A DNA stretch of 64,000 nucleotides. Source: Nakazawaea peltata. Its lineage: Eukaryota > Ascomycota > Pichiomycetes > Alaninales > Pachysolenaceae. Made by a program: the position numbers and the translations under genes. This document shows positions 23,867 to 64,000 of the stretch, one piece after another (position 1 is the stretch's first letter; the number at the start of each line of letters is the position of its first letter). Location: the NCBI GenBank assembly GCA_001599355.1, contig BCGQ01000005.1, positions 748,222-812,221 of the forward strand, read 5' to 3'. Under the pieces are notes generated by a model, which saw only the letters and a list, made by a program, of their open reading frames with translations, made no database searches and was not told the DNA's origin.

Positions 23867-25978
23867 TTATTCGTCCTTGATCAAAGCATCTTCGAATCTC
23901 AAATCCCAACCAATCTTTGGACCCAACTTAGGAAGGACCTCGGCAACACTTTGAACATCCTTATCACCTCTACCGGAAATGGTGATGACCAAATGTTGAT
24001 CCTTGGACATTGTCTTGGCCAATTGAACGGCTCCGTAAACAGCATGAGAACTTTCTAAAGCTGGAATGATACCTTCCAATTGAGATAAGAGCTTGAAACC
24101 TTCCAAAGCTTGAGCATCATCGGCAGCAATGAACTCGACTCTTCCACTGTCCTTCCATGAAGCTAATTCTGGACCAACACCAGGGTAATCCAAACCAGCA
24201 GAGACGGAATGAGTGTCGTGAACTTGACCGTCATTGTCTTGCAAGACGTAGGTTCTGACACCGTGGAAAACACCTGGACGTCCAACGGTCAAAGTGGCAG
24301 AATGTCTTTCGGTGTTGACACCGTCACCTCCGGCTTCGACACCCAATAATTTAACTGACAAGTCCTTCTCGAATGGAGAGAAAGTACCGGTGGAATTGGA
24401 ACCTCCTCCGACACAGGCGACGATGGCATCTGGTAACAGACCGTTATTCAGGGCCAGGAATTGCTCCTTGATTTCGTTACCAATCACACTTTGGAAAGTA
24501 CGTACCAAAGTAGGGTATGGGTGGGGTCCGATGGCCGATCCGACAACGTAGTGGGTGTTTTCCAAGTGAGAAACCCAGAAACGGAAAGCCTCAGAGGTGG
24601 CATCTCTCAAAGTTTGAGTACCGTTGGTAACGGCGACAACCTTGGCTCCTAAGATCTTCATTCTGAACACATTCAAAGCTTGACGTCTGACATCTTCAGC
24701 TCCCATGAAAACGGTACATCCCAAACCGAACTTGGCACAAGCGGTGGCAGTGGCAACACCGTGTTGACCAGCTCCGGTCTCGGCAATGATCTCGGTCTTT
24801 CCTAATCTCTTAGCGATCAAGACTTGAGCCAAAGCATTGTTGATCTTGTGGGAACCAGTGTGGTTTAAGTCCTCTCTTTTCAACCAGATTTGAGCACCAC
24901 CAGCATACTCAGATAATCTCTCGGCTTTGTGGAAGGAAGAAGGACGTCCAATGTATTGGTACAAAGACTTGAACTCGGCCCAGAACTCTGGGTCGGCAGT
25001 GGCAGACTCGAAAGCACGCTCCAACTCTCTAAGACAAGCATGAAGAGCTTCAGGAACATATTGACCACCGAATTCTCCGAATCTTGGGTTATATTTATGA
25101 GACTCGTTGAAATCTGGCTCGACGAGCTTCTTAGCAGCGACTTCTGGAGCTTCTAATGGGGCAGAAGAAGCGGTGAAAGACTCATCTTTACCCAAGATTT
25201 CTCTGGCGTATTTCTTGATGGCTTCACGACGTTGACCGGCTGGGGTCTCAGCAAGAAGAGTCACGACTTTACTTCCGATAACTACACCTTCAGCGGCAGA
25301 AGCAGCAGTGAGGAAATGCTCTCTGGTACTAATACCGAAACCAACGGCCAATGGAGTGTCTTTGGAGAATTTTCTGATGTGAGAGGTCAAAGAAGTGATG
25401 GAATCGGAGAAAGTTCCGGTGGCACCAGTGGTTCCCATACGAGAGACGACATAGATGAACGAATCGGCAATGTCCGATAACACTTGTAATCTCTCATCAG
25501 TAGTAGAAGGAGCGACTAATGGAATATAAGACATACCGATTTGGGCACAGTGAGATCTGAATTTGACGGCCTCTTCTGGGGGCAAATCAACTACGATGAA
25601 ACCGTTGGCTCCAGCGTCATAAGAAGCTTGGATCATCTTTTGTTCGCCGTAACGTAAAATTGGGTTATAGTAACCCATAAGAATAATTGGGACGGTGACT
25701 CCGGCGGCTCTGGCCTTGGCTACCAATTGAAGACACAATTCGACGGTGACGCCGTTGTCCAAAGCGGCGGTGTTGGCCTCTTGGATAGTTGGACCATCGG
25801 CGATTGGGTCGGAGAATGGTACTCCCAATTCGATGATATCTACACCACCTTCTTGCATTCCTTGCAAGATTGGGACGGTGTCTTCGATGGTTGGGAAACC
25901 GGCGGTGATGAAGGTGACGAGGGCATTACGACCTTCCTTTTTGCACCTGGCAAAGGTTTCTCTTAAGTTCAGGGACAT
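23867..25978 (-). CDS. TRP5: Tryptophan synthase, fused alpha-beta
   Basis: This is a 703-residue bifunctional enzyme for the last two steps of tryptophan synthesis. The alpha domain (about 1-250) cleaves indole-glycerol phosphate and shows the catalytic segment [20 protein letters not shown] (about 50-69, with the Glu and Asp). A linker of about 40 residues leads to the beta domain (about 300-700), which joins indole to serine with PLP. The PLP lysine is Lys378 in [15 protein letters not shown], and [10 protein letters not shown] holds the PLP phosphate loop. Alpha-beta fusion in one chain is the fungal form. Two perfect Gcn4-type TGAGTCA sites lie 94 and 240 bases upstream, consistent with general amino-acid control. 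Confidence 0.98.
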
Positions 25979-26071: not shown

Positions 26072-26078
26072 TGAGTCA
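26072..26078. promoter_or_regulatory. Gcn4-type site, proximal, TRP5 promoter
   Basis: TGAGTCA, a perfect Gcn4/AP-1 core, lies 94 bases upstream of the TRP5 ATG. Gcn4 activates amino-acid biosynthesis genes including TRP5 in S. cerevisiae. Binding here is inferred. Confidence 0.7.
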
Positions 26079-26217: not shown

Positions 26218-26224
26218 TGAGTCA
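26218..26224. promoter_or_regulatory. Gcn4-type site, distal, TRP5 promoter
   Basis: This is a second perfect TGAGTCA, 240 bases upstream of the TRP5 ATG. One-mismatch relatives follow (a TGAATCA near 26247 and a CGAGTCA near 26306). Confidence 0.65.
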
Positions 26225-57247: not shown

Positions 57248-60200
57248 ATGGATTTCAATCTTTCTGAGTCTCTCACAGCGTTTCAAGATGCTGATAAAGC
57301 ATCCTTTGAAGTCTCAGATCCAGAAAGATACCTCCAAACAGTAACCGACGCCCTCGCGGTATCGTGTGAATCAATTGGAAGAGATGAGATCTTCGAGAGT
57401 ATTCAAGACTTAGTTCATTGTTTTCCGAAGCTTAACGCGAAAACTCAAAGGGCGCTTGGGTATTTGATCTCGTCTTCGACTATGAATATCGCCCAAAACG
57501 CCATTCACCTCCTTGAAGATGGTGATCATGACACTTTCCCAGCCTATAAAAAATACTTGGAATTGTATGGCTACTTGGTGTATTGTTATCTTGACTATTT
57601 ACGTGAACAAGACTATAGTGTGATGAGCAAGACCAAGAAACAGATTGACAAGAAGTCCTTGGAGAGTTTCCAGAATCATTGTCTGCAAATTGAAACCGCC
57701 ATGGAGGCCATCTCTAAAGTGTTCCAAATCAAGCTCTCCAGGTTCTTCGTCACCACTCCAGAACGTGATTTGTTCGTCAGTTTGTTCACTAGACCTATCT
57801 GGGGATTAATGGAGAGTAAAGAAAGAATGAGAGCTCCAGGTGTCAAACTCTTGATGTTCAAATGTATTTGTGAGCTGGTCAAATTCCATGGCCATGCTTC
57901 AGTTGCCCAAAGCTCGATCGTATCCAATTTGACCTTTTTTGAGCATCTTAATAGTCCATTAGCTGAGTTGCTCGCCTCTTTAGCCGATAATTATGATTAT
58001 AGTCAGTTGACAGATGAGGTTCTCCGTGAACTTTCTAATAAAGATTTCGATCCAAATGATGCTACAGGTCCTAAATCCGTGGCTACTTTCTTGTCGAAAT
58101 TATCAGAATTACAACCTAGGATCGTTATGAAACAGATGACTCTTATTGCTCAATTCTTGGATAATGGTTCCTCTTCATTAAGATGTGCTGTCATCGAAGT
58201 ATGTGGAAATATCGTTCTCAATATGTGTAATGAGGATGAATTATTTGAGATTCATAAGAACAATTTGGATAAATTGATTGCTTTGTTAGAGCAAAGATTG
58301 TTAGATCAAAGTCATTATGCCAGAGCTAAATCATTACAGTCGTTGATCTCATTATGTGACTCTAAAAGATCTATTTTGAAACAACATCGGGCTGTTTTCA
58401 CTGAGTTGGCAGTAAGATCTCTTGAAGACAAGAGTTCTCACGTTAGAAGATACGCTATTAAGCTTTTGAGTAAATTGATATTGACACATCCATTCTCTCT
58501 GATGCATGGATCTCAATTGAATAGTGTAGTATGGGGGAAGAGATTGGAGGAGGCTGAATTGCAATTGGAGGAATTGGATCCTAGTTATAAAGAGATGAGA
58601 AGGTTACAGGCGGAGCAGGAGAGAAATGTAGATGAGATGGACATTGATGAAGAGGTTGAGGGCGCTGAGCCTGAGGCTGATGAAGAAGGCGAAGTCGATG
58701 CTGCGGAAACTGATGCTGCCGATGCCGATGCTGATGATGCCGATGCCGATGCTGATGCTGAACCTGAACTATCTCTTCTCCAATCTGACCTGATCCATAA
58801 AGACCAAGAAACCTTAAACAACATCGCCAAACTCAAATTGACCATCCAATACTACATCGAAGCTATCACCTTCATTACCGAAGTTGAAAAAGGTGTCAAA
58901 ATAGCATCACAATTGTTATACTCCAAGAACAAAACAGATGTCATCGAGACTATGGAATTCTTTGTCATTGCTGATGCTTTCGATATCCAAGGGAAAGATC
59001 TCGGTATCCGTCGTATGCTTCATCTTGTTTGGATGAAGAATGGTAATGATGAAGGTGATAATATCCCAAAGAAATTAGTCGAGTGTTACTGCCAATTGTT
59101 CTTGACGGCCCCATCAAATGTTTCAATGGAACAGTCAGCTGCTTACGTAGCCAAGAATTTATGTAAGTTGACGTTTGATTCCTCAGTTGCTGAGCTCGCC
59201 TCCTTAGAAAGATTAGTAGGAATGATGTATGAAGACGACTTGATCAATGAGCTTGTGGTGAAAGTTTTATGGCAAATTTATAGTTTCGAATGCCCTTCAG
59301 ATGCTGATGACCATTCTAAAGCTCAACATTCCAAACAGAGACTCGGTTCAATCATCATTTTAGGTATGGTTGGATTAGCTGATCATGAAGTGATCATGAA
59401 AGGGTTAGATTTACTTCTTAACGTAGGTTTAGGAGCTGTTGGACGTGAGAATTTGATTCTTAATCGTTATTCATGTATCGCTTTACAAAGGATTGTACCA
59501 TCATCCAAACTGAAAGCCAGCTTGGAAACAGTAAAAATCCCTAGAGAAAAAGATATTCTCGATAAATTATCACTGGTTACCTTATTTTATACGGAAGATA
59601 ACGAATGGTATGGAATTTCTGAAGAAGCAATTAATGCTATTTACCGAATTTCTGAACATCCAGATCAATTATGCACTCAAATTATTAAACAAAAAACTTC
59701 CGAAGTGTTTTCTCCATCTGATAGCTCCACGGAGAAATCTGACGTTGCCCAATTGTCTCAACTCCTCTTTATAGTAGGTCATGTTGCTATTAAAACTTTA
59801 GTCCATTTAGAGAAATTAGAGGCTGAATTCAAGAACAAAAAACATCTTGCAGAACAAGCCAAGAATAATAATGACGAAAAAGATAAGGGAGCAGAACAAA
59901 AGAATGAGTTAGAAATGATTGGGGGTACTTCGGAAGATGATTTTGCCGATGCAGTTCATATCATCAAAGAACAAGAGTTATTATACAGTGAGAACTCATT
60001 ACTTTCGAGATTCAAAGACGTAGTCAAAGTGATTTGTTCCAATAACGTTCAATATGATGACCCAATTTTGCAGAGATCTGCTACTCTTTGTTTATCAAAA
60101 TTGATGTTAATCTCATCAAGATATTGTGAAGAAAATTTACCACTTTTGATCACGATAATGGAAAAATCAAAAGATCCAATCATCAGAAGTAATGCCGTTT

Positions 60201-60739
60201 TGGCTCTTGGAGATATGGCAGTAGTATTTAATAATTTAGTAGATGCAAACACCGACTATTTGTACCGTCGTCTCAATGATGACAATATAATGGTACAAAG
60301 AACCTGTTTAATGACTATTACTTTCTTGATTTTGGCAGGCCAAGTCAAGGTCAAGGGACAATTATCTCAAATGGCTAAATGTTTGGAACATAAAGATCAA
60401 AATATCAGTGATATGTGTAAAATGTTCTTTACCGAATTGGCTACTAAAGATAATGCTATTTATAACTCTTTCATCGATTTGTTCTCTGGATTATCGAATG
60501 ATGATGAGTTGCAAGAGGCTCAATTCAATAGAATTGTCAAGTTTGTCGTAGGATTTATCGAGAGTGATAAGCATGTCAAACAATTGACTTCGAAATTGTT
60601 ACAAAGATTGACCAATTCTAAGAACGAGAAGGAATGGAATAATGTTGCTTTTGTATTGAATACTTTACCTATTAAGGATGAGTTACTGGAGGAAGTGAAG
60701 GGTGTTCTTGAGGAAGGATTTAAGATGGTTAGTGTTTGA
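57248..60739 (+). CDS. YCS4: Condensin subunit Ycs4 (Cnd1/CAP-D2)
   Basis: This 1163-residue HEAT-repeat subunit (S. cerevisiae 1176) belongs to condensin, which compacts mitotic chromosomes and rDNA. The N-terminal Cnd1 region spans about 60-170. HEAT repeats follow, for example FLSKLSELQPRIVMKQMTLIAQFLDNGSSSLRCAVIEVCGNIV (about 284-326) and SSHVRRYAIKLLSKLI. The conserved late block is IMEKSKDPIIRSNAVLALGDMAV (about 970-992) with DNIMVQRTCLMTITFLILAGQVKVKGQL. An acidic Ala-Asp repeat (about 489-505) encoded by a GATGCC/GATGCT microsatellite interrupts the middle. Codons favour TTG/TTA and AGA as in its neighbours. Confidence 0.93.
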   Translation: MDFNLSESLTAFQDADKASFEVSDPERYLQTVTDALAVSCESIGRDEIFESIQDLVHCFPKLNAKTQRALGYLISSSTMNIAQNAIHLLEDGDHDTFPAYKKYLELYGYLVYCYLDYLREQDYSVMSKTKKQIDKKSLESFQNHCLQIETAMEAISKVFQIKLSRFFVTTPERDLFVSLFTRPIWGLMESKERMRAPGVKLLMFKCICELVKFHGHASVAQSSIVSNLTFFEHLNSPLAELLASLADNYDYSQLTDEVLRELSNKDFDPNDATGPKSVATFLSKLSELQPRIVMKQMTLIAQFLDNGSSSLRCAVIEVCGNIVLNMCNEDELFEIHKNNLDKLIALLEQRLLDQSHYARAKSLQSLISLCDSKRSILKQHRAVFTELAVRSLEDKSSHVRRYAIKLLSKLILTHPFSLMHGSQLNSVVWGKRLEEAELQLEELDPSYKEMRRLQAEQERNVDEMDIDEEVEGAEPEADEEGEVDAAETDAADADADDADADADAEPELSLLQSDLIHKDQETLNNIAKLKLTIQYYIEAITFITEVEKGVKIASQLLYSKNKTDVIETMEFFVIADAFDIQGKDLGIRRMLHLVWMKNGNDEGDNIPKKLVECYCQLFLTAPSNVSMEQSAAYVAKNLCKLTFDSSVAELASLERLVGMMYEDDLINELVVKVLWQIYSFECPSDADDHSKAQHSKQRLGSIIILGMVGLADHEVIMKGLDLLLNVGLGAVGRENLILNRYSCIALQRIVPSSKLKASLETVKIPREKDILDKLSLVTLFYTEDNEWYGISEEAINAIYRISEHPDQLCTQIIKQKTSEVFSPSDSSTEKSDVAQLSQLLFIVGHVAIKTLVHLEKLEAEFKNKKHLAEQAKNNNDEKDKGAEQKNELEMIGGTSEDDFADAVHIIKEQELLYSENSLLSRFKDVVKVICSNNVQYDDPILQRSATLCLSKLMLISSRYCEENLPLLITIMEKSKDPIIRSNAVLALGDMAVVFNNLVDANTDYLYRRLNDDNIMVQRTCLMTITFLILAGQVKVKGQLSQMAKCLEHKDQNISDMCKMFFTELATKDNAIYNSFIDLFSGLSNDDELQEAQFNRIVKFVVGFIESDKHVKQLTSKLLQRLTNSKNEKEWNNVAFVLNTLPIKDELLEEVKGVLEEGFKMVSV

Positions 60740-61153
60740 GTAGAGTAATATAGTTTATGAAGTGTATTAGGGATACAGTGATAGTAATCAGCTTTTAGTA
60801 GGATGCTCTTAGCGTATGAGTATTCAGGTAGTAAATGACTCATCGTAGTTAGCCGTAGTAATATTGACTCACTGTAGTTAATCATTGTTGTAGTGACTCA
60901 TTGCTTTGACTCATTCACTACACTTACCGTCTCTACCATTGCCCACCTTCTCCAAATCATACCATTTAACCCCCGGATACTACTCATCTGCATCTTCCCC
61001 TTCATTTTTCCACAGTAATTCCTAGGAAGAAGGGTGAAAATATCCGATGAAAAATCGTCTGATAAGAAACGCAGATAAGACCTTTATAAATAGGGAAGTA
61101 GAGTAGATTGTAAAAAACCACCCACCCAATAATCATCTACACTATCAATTGAA
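60740..61153. other. Promoter of the D-amino-acid oxidase gene
   Basis: There is no gene here. It contains the four-site Gcn4-type array listed separately, then a C/T-rich stretch (about 60905-61015) and a TATA-like TTTATAAATA (61082-61091) about 65 bases before the ATG. Confidence 0.55.
60836..60913. promoter_or_regulatory. Array of four perfect Gcn4-type TGACTCA sites
   Basis: TGACTCA occurs at 60836-60842, 60865-60871, 60894-60900 and 60907-60913, spaced 29, 29 and 13 bases, 241-318 bases upstream of the D-amino-acid oxidase ATG. The first two 29-base units are alike beyond the core (both carry GTAGTTA about 10-16 bases in), so the array looks like a decayed tandem repeat. TGACTCA is the exact Gcn4/AP-1 core. 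Confidence 0.75.
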
Positions 61154-62191
61154 ATGTCCGAAACTCACGTCGTTATCGGTGCCGGTATTGTCGGTTTATA
61201 CACGGTCTACTCCCTTGTAGAGAAGGGAGTTCCAGCCTCCAAAATCACAGTCAAAGCTCAGTATCTCCCAATGGATCACTCCACTTATTACACTTCACCA
61301 TGGGCTGGAGGAAACTTCTCGTGTATTTCTCCATCTGATGAAGCTGCTTTGAGACATGACAAGTTCACCTACACTTCGTTATCACAAATCTATCGGAAAT
61401 TGGGACTGGATCCAGAGAATGGTCTCACCATGTACCCAAGTACCGAGTATTGGGACTTTGACCCAGAACCACTGAAGATCGCGTCTCTTAAGAGTTATCT
61501 TCATGATTTCAAAGAGATTCCAAAGGAAGAGTTGCTTGAAGGAACTAAATATGGAGTCAACTACATGACATGGAATTTCAACTGCCCAATCTTTTTATCC
61601 AACTTCAAGAAATACTTGGAATCATTAGGAGTGACATTCCAAAGAGTCACCTTAACTCATATCTCTCAACTGTTCAAGAGTTCTAATACCAAATATGTGT
61701 TCAATTGTACTGGTATTGGGGCCCGTAAGTTAGGTGGTGTAGAAGATACCAAAATGTACCCTACCCGTGGACAAGTGGTGGTGATCAGAGCTCCTCATGT
61801 CAGATATAATATGATTAGATGGGGAACAGATTACGCCACCTATATCATTCCTAGACCAGGTAGAGCCAATGAGCTTGTCTTAGGAGGTTTCATTCAGAAG
61901 GATAACTGGACTGGAGACACTTTCAACTATGAAACCGATGATATCTTGAAGAGAACTACTGAGCTTTTGCCTCAAATCTTAGACAAACCATTAGAGATAA
62001 TTAGAGTGGCTGCTGGGTTGAGACCTTCAAGACATGGTGGTGTTAGAATTGAGAAAGAGATTGTAGAGGATGGTAAGGTTGTGATTCATAACTACGGAGC
62101 TTCGGGCTACGGGTATCAGGCAGGATTTGGTATGGCTAATGATGCTACAGATTTACTTCTTAGTGAGATTTCTATGAGACTGAAATTGTAA
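61154..62191 (+). CDS. D-amino-acid oxidase / D-aspartate oxidase family flavoenzyme
   Basis: This 345-residue FAD enzyme oxidises D-amino acids to 2-oxo acids, ammonia and hydrogen peroxide. The dinucleotide-binding motif is VVIGAGIVGLYTVYSL (Gly9, Gly11, Gly14). SPWAGGNF (about 53-60) is the family's FAD loop. RPSRHGGVRIE (about 292-302) holds the substrate carboxylate-binding Arg, and HNYGASGYGYQAGFG (about 313-327) is the DAO C-terminal signature. D-amino-acid versus D-aspartate preference cannot be told. Yeast DAOs are usually peroxisomal with a C-terminal SKL-like signal; this one ends LKL, a poor match. Four upstream TGACTCA sites suggest control by amino-acid supply. The ATG at 61154 is the first in frame. 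Confidence 0.9.
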   Translation: MSETHVVIGAGIVGLYTVYSLVEKGVPASKITVKAQYLPMDHSTYYTSPWAGGNFSCISPSDEAALRHDKFTYTSLSQIYRKLGLDPENGLTMYPSTEYWDFDPEPLKIASLKSYLHDFKEIPKEELLEGTKYGVNYMTWNFNCPIFLSNFKKYLESLGVTFQRVTLTHISQLFKSSNTKYVFNCTGIGARKLGGVEDTKMYPTRGQVVVIRAPHVRYNMIRWGTDYATYIIPRPGRANELVLGGFIQKDNWTGDTFNYETDDILKRTTELLPQILDKPLEIIRVAAGLRPSRHGGVRIEKEIVEDGKVVIHNYGASGYGYQAGFGMANDATDLLLSEISMRLKL

Positions 62192-63031: not shown

Positions 63032-64000
63032 ATGTCGCTCAATACCGCTAATTCCGGCGCTAACTCAAGCGCCATAACTAGCGCCAATACCGCCATCACC
63101 GCCCCTACAAACGTGCCCAAACAATCTTCACGTACCAAATTACTTCATCACGTCACCGAAGAACTCTCAAAAATAGAGTCCCTCCCGATAGATGAGCGCG
63201 AGCTCAACTTGCTGGACATGAACATAGTCTCAATACCACTGGAAGTAATAGAACTTCTCAGAGATAACGTATCGAAGCTTTTATTACACAGTAATTTGAT
63301 CCCTCAGATCCCCAATTTCTTCAACCAATTGACCACTTTGAAGTATCTCGACTTGCATGCGAATAGACTCACCGAGTTCCCGCAACTGATCTGCCATCTT
63401 ACCGGCTTGGAAGTATTGGATCTTAGTGGGAATCAGATCAAAAAACTCTCCCTCAATTTGGGTAATATGACAAATTTACAGCTCTTGAACATCAAAGATA
63501 ACAAAATTGAGTACTTGCCATCTTCAATTTTGGAGCTCTCCAATTTGAAAGTGTTAGAATTGGGTGAAAATCCATTGATTCAGCCCTCTTTACAACAAAT
63601 TTCAGAATTTAAGAAGAGTTCTAAAGATTGGATCGAGAAATTGAAGATTTATTTGCATGAAAACGGGAAAAGTATAGACAAGAAGATTCAGGAGGTTGAT
63701 CGTAATAACTCTGTCGATCACCATATCTCCAGTAAAGCTGCTAAACGGATGGGTTTCATCGTCAATAAGAAACCTTCACAGGGATCCATTCCTTCTACTG
63801 AGGAAGAGATCCGGTCACTGCTGCAATTGCAGATGGAAAACAACAACAAAAACTTACACCAACATTCCTTATCACAGCCAGATTTAATGAAGCCCAATAA
63901 TACTTCACCAATCACACCTTTAACTGGTACCAGACTGAGATCAAGAGCTCTGACTGTATCACTCAGAGAAGGAGCTCAAAGTGCGGCCGATATTCCCGTC
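63032..64000 (+). CDS. SOG2: Leucine-rich-repeat protein, Sog2-like (RAM network), 5' part only
   Basis: The frame opens at ATG 63032 (MSLNTANSGANSSAITS) and stays open for 323 codons to the window edge, with no stop. After a Ser/Ala/Asn-rich start, a tandem of leucine-rich repeats spans about 65-200 (LNLLDMNIVSIP, LKYLDLHANRLTEFP, LEVLDLSGNQIKKL, LQLLNIKDNKIEYLP, LKVLELGENPL). Then come SSKAAKRMGFIVNKKPSQGS and a Ser/Asn-rich region. LRR plus an MGF-type motif fits Sog2, which works with Mob2, Cbk1, Kic1, Hym1 and Tao3 in the RAM pathway for polarised growth and daughter-cell separation. Without the C-terminal half the name is tentative. CTG sits at a consensus LRR leucine (LLDMN). Confidence 0.7.
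   Translation, partial: MSLNTANSGANSSAITSANTAITAPTNVPKQSSRTKLLHHVTEELSKIESLPIDERELNLLDMNIVSIPLEVIELLRDNVSKLLLHSNLIPQIPNFFNQLTTLKYLDLHANRLTEFPQLICHLTGLEVLDLSGNQIKKLSLNLGNMTNLQLLNIKDNKIEYLPSSILELSNLKVLELGENPLIQPSLQQISEFKKSSKDWIEKLKIYLHENGKSIDKKIQEVDRNNSVDHHISSKAAKRMGFIVNKKPSQGSIPSTEEEIRSLLQLQMENNNKNLHQHSLSQPDLMKPNNTSPITPLTGTRLRSRALTVSLREGAQSAADIPV

Follow-up and report, generated by a model that had tools for sequence, protein, structure and literature searches.

The oxidase gene and its upstream region

Within the window, the 64,000-nucleotide stretch of Nakazawaea peltata DNA analyzed here (C5:748222-812221, in a genome of 11.6 Mb), an intergenic region of 414 bp (60740-61153) separates the gene for condensin subunit 1 (Cnd1) from that for a flavoenzyme of the D-amino-acid oxidase (DAO) family (Table 1). 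The region contains four copies of TGACTCA, all on the plus strand at spacings of 29, 29 and 13 bp and spanning positions -318 to -241 relative to the oxidase ATG at 61154. A preliminary description had reported four copies in 78 bases, 241-318 bases 5' of the gene, and all of the positions and spacings were reproduced. Because the Cnd1 gene is also on the plus strand, the promoter is not common to the two genes, and the array lies in the 5' region of the oxidase and the 3' region of Cnd1. For the same reason the oxidase is the sole neighbor with a 5' end facing the intergenic region, though not the only downstream gene as had been claimed, with a second plus-strand frame present at 63032. The sites are placed before a TATA box, in an ordinary upstream position.

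Table 1. Features of the oxidase locus, in window coordinates; offsets are relative to the oxidase ATG
Feature	Position	Strand	Remarks
Condensin subunit 1 (Cnd1), upstream neighbor	57248..60739	+	ends 96 bases before site 1
Gcn4-type site 1, TGACTCA	60836..60842	+	-318
Gcn4-type site 2, TGACTCA	60865..60871	+	-289
Gcn4-type site 3, TGACTCA	60894..60900	+	-260
Gcn4-type site 4, TGACTCA	60907..60913	+	-247
Degenerate 29-bp direct duplication, copies 1 and 2	60836..60893	+	20/29 identical
GATAAG, candidate nitrogen-catabolite GATA site	61061..61066	+	-93
GATAAG	61074..61079	+	-80
TATAAA box	61085..61090	+	-69
DAO-family flavoenzyme, 345 aa	61154..62191	+	PF01266, E 5.7e-28

Immediately 5' of the TATAAA, two copies of GATAAG, the nitrogen-catabolite GATA motif, occur in the same direction 13 bp apart; these sites were absent from the earlier account of the locus. 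GATAAG/CTTATC pairs within 30 bp were found upstream of two of 46 control genes, which are neighbors in one stretch and neither of which has a TGASTCA. Based on the motif pair, a second input reporting nitrogen quality is plausible, while a study in Cryptococcus describes DAO expression without a clear relation to GAT1 deletion (PMC4489021), a result that counts against the GATA part of the explanation.

The oxidase is 56-67% identical to eight aligned relatives, with Kuraishia capsulata (66%) and Pachysolen tannophilus (67%) the best-scoring named relatives among the matches listed, and the source names of these proteins are mixed, several being called D-aspartate oxidase and others D-amino-acid oxidase. 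The catalytic residues Arg290 (13 of 13 alignment rows) and Tyr230 (12 of 13) align with Arg278 and Tyr223 of human D-aspartate oxidase. The oxidase Arg222 aligns with Arg216 of the human enzyme, the residue described in PMC8260693 as binding the side-chain carboxylate; of the nine close-clade rows, made up of the query and eight of 120 listed relatives, eight have an arginine at this position, and all four distant paralogues lack it, one having a lysine instead. The gate arginine (human Arg237) is not kept, with Ile247 at the aligned position, and among solved structures the D-amino-acid oxidases 7ct4 and 1c0i match best, with the D-aspartate oxidases 9vpf and 6rkf ranked behind. For Candida boidinii, PMC8708985 reports an activity towards acidic D-amino acids that increases when the yeast is grown on them. 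The evidence is mixed, and the oxidase may prefer acidic D-amino acids in the manner of a D-aspartate oxidase, such that the initial assignment as a D-amino-acid oxidase holds for the family (PF01266 and the catalytic Arg and Tyr) and the enzyme is perhaps of the D-aspartate type, with Arg222 kept and the gate arginine replaced. The protein terminates in -RLKL, perhaps a candidate peroxisomal signal.

Five further DAO-like matches, with 30-34% identity, occur in the genome. The array is not common to these genes: among the four with a placeable start, three lack TGASTCA and the fourth has just one copy, at -418. In a paralogue frame at C11:171735-172784, a single TGA lies close to the start and there is no in-frame ATG upstream, as would result from an intron, a pseudogene or a sequence error. 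Scans of two contig collections (genomic and viral) found no locus homologous to the oxidase.

Clustering and origin of the sites

The window as a whole is not enriched in TGASTCA (13 found, 13.1 expected from the shuffle mean), and the observation thus rests on the clustering of the sites. Genome-wide there are 1837 occurrences in 11,631,020 bp, or one per 6.3 kb, compared to 1340 for a reversed control pattern, an excess of only 1.37-fold. Four sites in 78 bp have a Poisson expectation of 0.0004 per genome, a value to be read with the four copies being partly duplicates and hence not four independent events; of 20,000 simulated (first-order Markov) versions of the 414-bp intergenic region, 44 contained two sites, a single one contained three and none reached four. 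On these figures the cluster exceeds chance expectation.

When the genome was searched for at least three TGASTCA with successive gaps of ≤30 bp, two places were found (three overlapping matches), the oxidase array and one inside an open reading frame on contig C1, leaving the oxidase array as the single match to this rule that does not fall within a reading frame; the reversed control had one match. The orientations of the site triples were covered by two genome-wide searches and these pattern counts are possibly lower bounds. Same-direction pairs with gaps of ≤30 bp were at the level of chance (14, against 11 for the control), with three of the 14 belonging to the oxidase array and two to the coding triple, and no general excess of paired sites was seen. 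Given the 1.37-fold excess, the chance-level pairs and the single reversed triple, most of the copies of the core in the genome are probably inert.

The array had been viewed as a 29-bp repeat built by tandem duplication, which is apparent for the first two copies and not for the remainder. Outside of the core, copies 1 and 2 match at 13 of 22 positions (shuffle P 0.003, uncorrected), while copy 3 matches copy 1 at six and copy 2 at nine of the 22 (P 0.12 for copies 2 and 3). Site 4 follows site 3 by 13 bp, out of the 29-bp register, and Tandem Repeats Finder listed a 16-bp period at 60873-60903 and no 29-bp period. These comparisons are better accounted for by a single old duplication, together with two further sites that arose in some other way, than by a 29-bp array. 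A dispersed-repeat origin was not supported, as the 414-bp intergenic region matches only itself in the genome, and helical phasing was dropped on arithmetic, with 29 and 13 bp not being whole turns.

The apparent duplication of copies 1 and 2 also raises the alternative that the array arose incidentally through local duplication in a degenerate intergenic region, with sites that are rarely or never occupied and a gene controlled through substrate induction or GATA factors alone. Same-direction pairs at the level of chance genome-wide and the occurrence of one reversed triple are compatible with such an origin, and PMC8708985 and PMC4489021 describe the known fungal DAO genes as responding to D-amino acids, a published control by substrate induction that counts against the Gcn4 explanation. 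However, nine and 16 of the 22 non-core positions distinguish copy 1 from copies 2 and 3, respectively, yet all four of the 7-mers are perfect, a pattern consistent with, but no proof of, selection on the core. Site 4 outside of the 29-bp register and the typical position of the array upstream of the TATA box also stand against such an origin, and we consider it unlikely.

General amino acid control in the genome

The genome possesses a Gcn4 homologue of 287 aa on contig C2, the bZIP region of which is 71% identical to an S. cerevisiae query. There are 10 ATGs in the 1100 bp upstream of this gene, and the last four open upstream reading frames (uORFs) of 3, 3, 4 and 8 codons at -342, -235, -123 and -94, within 350 bp of its own ATG, a layout of short uORFs like that of GCN4 translational control. 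The same upstream region has a TGAGTCA at -644. A Gcn2-like gene is also present, with its C-terminal domain at C1:898548-899336 (one PF12745 match, E 3.0e-74) and an RWD domain in the N-terminal frame. A tight pair of TGACTCA (C1:903832-903855) lies ~220-240 bp upstream of the Gcn2-like gene and ~500 bp before a divergent frame, and, based on this pair, Gcn4 may exert feedback on its own activating kinase.

Using fragments of E. coli enzymes, amino-acid-biosynthesis genes were located and their upstream DNA then fetched; the S. cerevisiae gene names used here are presumed labels, assigned via the query fragment. Control genes were mechanical ORFs of at least 150 aa from the window and ten 6-kb stretches, with the oxidase and TRP5 left out. 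A TGASTCA was present within 600 bp upstream of nine of 18 amino-acid genes, compared to four of 45 controls (Fisher P 7.5e-4), and without TRP5, which had been noticed before the test, of eight of 17 (P 0.002). The nine with a site are the LEU1-, HIS4-, ARG3-, ARG4-, HIS1-, TRP3-, MET6-, HIS5- and TRP5-like genes, and the exact core is absent from the other nine promoters, a point against the Gcn4 explanation; Pfam was run on eight of the 18 genes, all site-bearing (seven and TRP5), and on none of the nine site-free ones. The oxidase promoter has four sites, while the biosynthetic maximum is two, in the homologues of HIS4 and TRP5, and none of the controls exceeds a single site. The TRP5-like gene (23867-25978, minus strand), with TGAGTCA at 26072-26078 and 26218-26224 in its promoter, serves as an internal positive control within the window.

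A second DAHP-synthase-like gene and an ADE5,7-like gene (both with no in-frame ATG found) and an ARG1-like locus were dropped before the counts. The ARG1-like locus, on C1, has 4002 N in a 4.5-kb stretch, no ATG and a frame reported as 21742 aa, and its promoter could not be scored. Queries of the genome with asd, argB and thrB fragments gave no matches, and the URA2-, CHA1-, ABZ1-, IDH- and PDC-like matches were placed in neither gene set. One of these, a PALP-family, PLP-dependent deaminase-like gene with a weak match to the threonine-deaminase fragment, which we take to be CHA1-like, combines a TGACTCA at -255 with three GATAAG-type sites (-208, -198 and -41), similar to the combination at the oxidase.

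Bas1 is a Myb factor that recognizes the core TGACTC and regulates purine, histidine and one-carbon genes. All four oxidase sites contain this sequence in one direction, and Myb proteins with neighboring repeats are present in the genome, such that the array could be bound by Bas1, either alone or jointly with Gcn4. The Bas1 and Gcn4 motifs overlap, as noted in PMC3936720 and PMC551538. Within 600 bp, the promoters of the ADE4-like, ADE17-like and one SHM-like gene possess three, two and three copies of TGACTC, with each set including a pair 16-24 bp apart and all eight copies followed by T, C or G, a pattern that from its sequence looks Bas1-like and distinct from the Gcn4-type core. TGACTC is followed by A in four of four cases at the oxidase (copies that are not independent of each other), in 11 of 20 in the amino-acid promoters and in two of 12 in the five purine/one-carbon promoters scored. 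The contrast in the final A between the oxidase and the purine/one-carbon set favors Gcn4 over Bas1, none of the Myb matches in the genome was recognized as a Bas1 orthologue, and a role for Bas1 at the array is improbable.

Another bZIP factor of the Yap type, which has the motif TTASTAA, could use the sites for an oxidative-stress response, as the enzyme makes hydrogen peroxide, and a second bZIP-type frame with a weak match to the Gcn4 query (E 0.003) exists in the genome. Against this, the 414-bp intergenic region has no TTASTAA and it is for the exact TGASTCA core that the biosynthetic promoters of this genome are enriched, making a Yap-type reading very improbable.

Proposed regulation and comparison with known systems

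We interpret the four TGACTCA copies as an upstream activating region for Gcn4, the binding of which would place the oxidase under general amino acid control, and assign this reading a probability of about 0.7. The same reading had been offered in the preliminary description and is strengthened by the Gcn4 homologue, the Gcn2-like gene, the enrichment of the core in amino-acid promoters and the position before the TATA box; its accompanying details fared less well, with the duplication restricted to copies 1 and 2 and the substrate type less certain. The sites and their clustering, the Gcn4- and Gcn2-like genes, the short uORFs and the enrichment of the core are read from the DNA itself; the transcript ends, Gcn4 binding, induction, the substrate, the GATA input and the physiological purpose are inferred, and the course of events could be as follows. 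A shortage of amino acids would lead to uncharged tRNA and the phosphorylation of eIF2 by Gcn2, allowing the translation of the GCN4 mRNA with its short uORFs. Gcn4 dimers on the four sites would then bring transcription factors and polymerase machinery to the TATA box, and the oxidase would convert D-amino acids, perhaps acidic ones, to a keto acid and ammonium for use in amino-acid synthesis, with the GATAAG pair adjoining the TATA box possibly adding a check on nitrogen-source quality. In synthetic promoters of S. cerevisiae, more sites result in a higher median Gcn4 occupancy, and Gcn4 sites activate strongly in amino-acid starvation and repress weakly in glucose, according to PMC3936720.

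A larger interpretation is possible, though tentative and rather doubtful as a whole: in this yeast lineage, the promoter with the densest Gcn4 sites in the genome would belong to an oxidase of D-amino acids (perhaps acidic ones), with general control wired strongly to the salvage, and perhaps the detoxification, of D-aspartate and D-glutamate, the GATAAG sites gating by nitrogen quality and D-amino-acid stress being sensed indirectly through Gcn2. If the Gcn4 reading is true, the Gcn4 regulon gains an enzyme that oxidizes D-amino acids and the starvation pathway is tied to the use of mirror-image amino acids, with starvation switching on their salvage, in a simple case of regulatory rewiring. 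Among the papers listed by searches of the open-license PMC literature, none connected Gcn4 with a gene for a D-amino-acid oxidase; in those of the listed papers that were consulted, the two terms occurred in unrelated places.

The arrangement at the oxidase resembles that of the general-control elements of HIS4, ARG and TRP genes in S. cerevisiae, with the exact TGASTCA core within ~400 bp of the ATG, several copies and a TATA promoter; HIS4 of S. cerevisiae has a multi-copy TGACTC structure. The Gcn4 site TGACTCA is listed with a window of 0-400 in PMC551538. Whereas the S. cerevisiae general-control genes are biosynthetic, the target here is an enzyme that oxidizes D-amino acids, and none of the 18 biosynthetic promoters scored in its own genome has as many sites.

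The DAO and D-aspartate oxidase genes of other yeasts (Candida boidinii, Cryptococcus humicola, C. neoformans and C. gattii) belong to the same family (PF01266), with a C. boidinii protein 64% identical to the oxidase, but differ in control, which is published for them as D-amino-acid induction (PMC8708985 and PMC4489021), while Gcn4-type sites are found here. A further parallel is lysine biosynthesis in Candida albicans, for which PMC4863609 describes a rewiring of Gcn4 control demonstrated by ChIP and expression. In both cases one yeast lineage would have strengthened Gcn4 control of a pathway, though the C. albicans example concerns biosynthesis and draws on ChIP and expression, whereas the oxidase is a catabolic gene known from sequence alone. 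The regulatory device, several Gcn4 sites before a TATA promoter, is of an ordinary and known type; it is the target that is unexpected.
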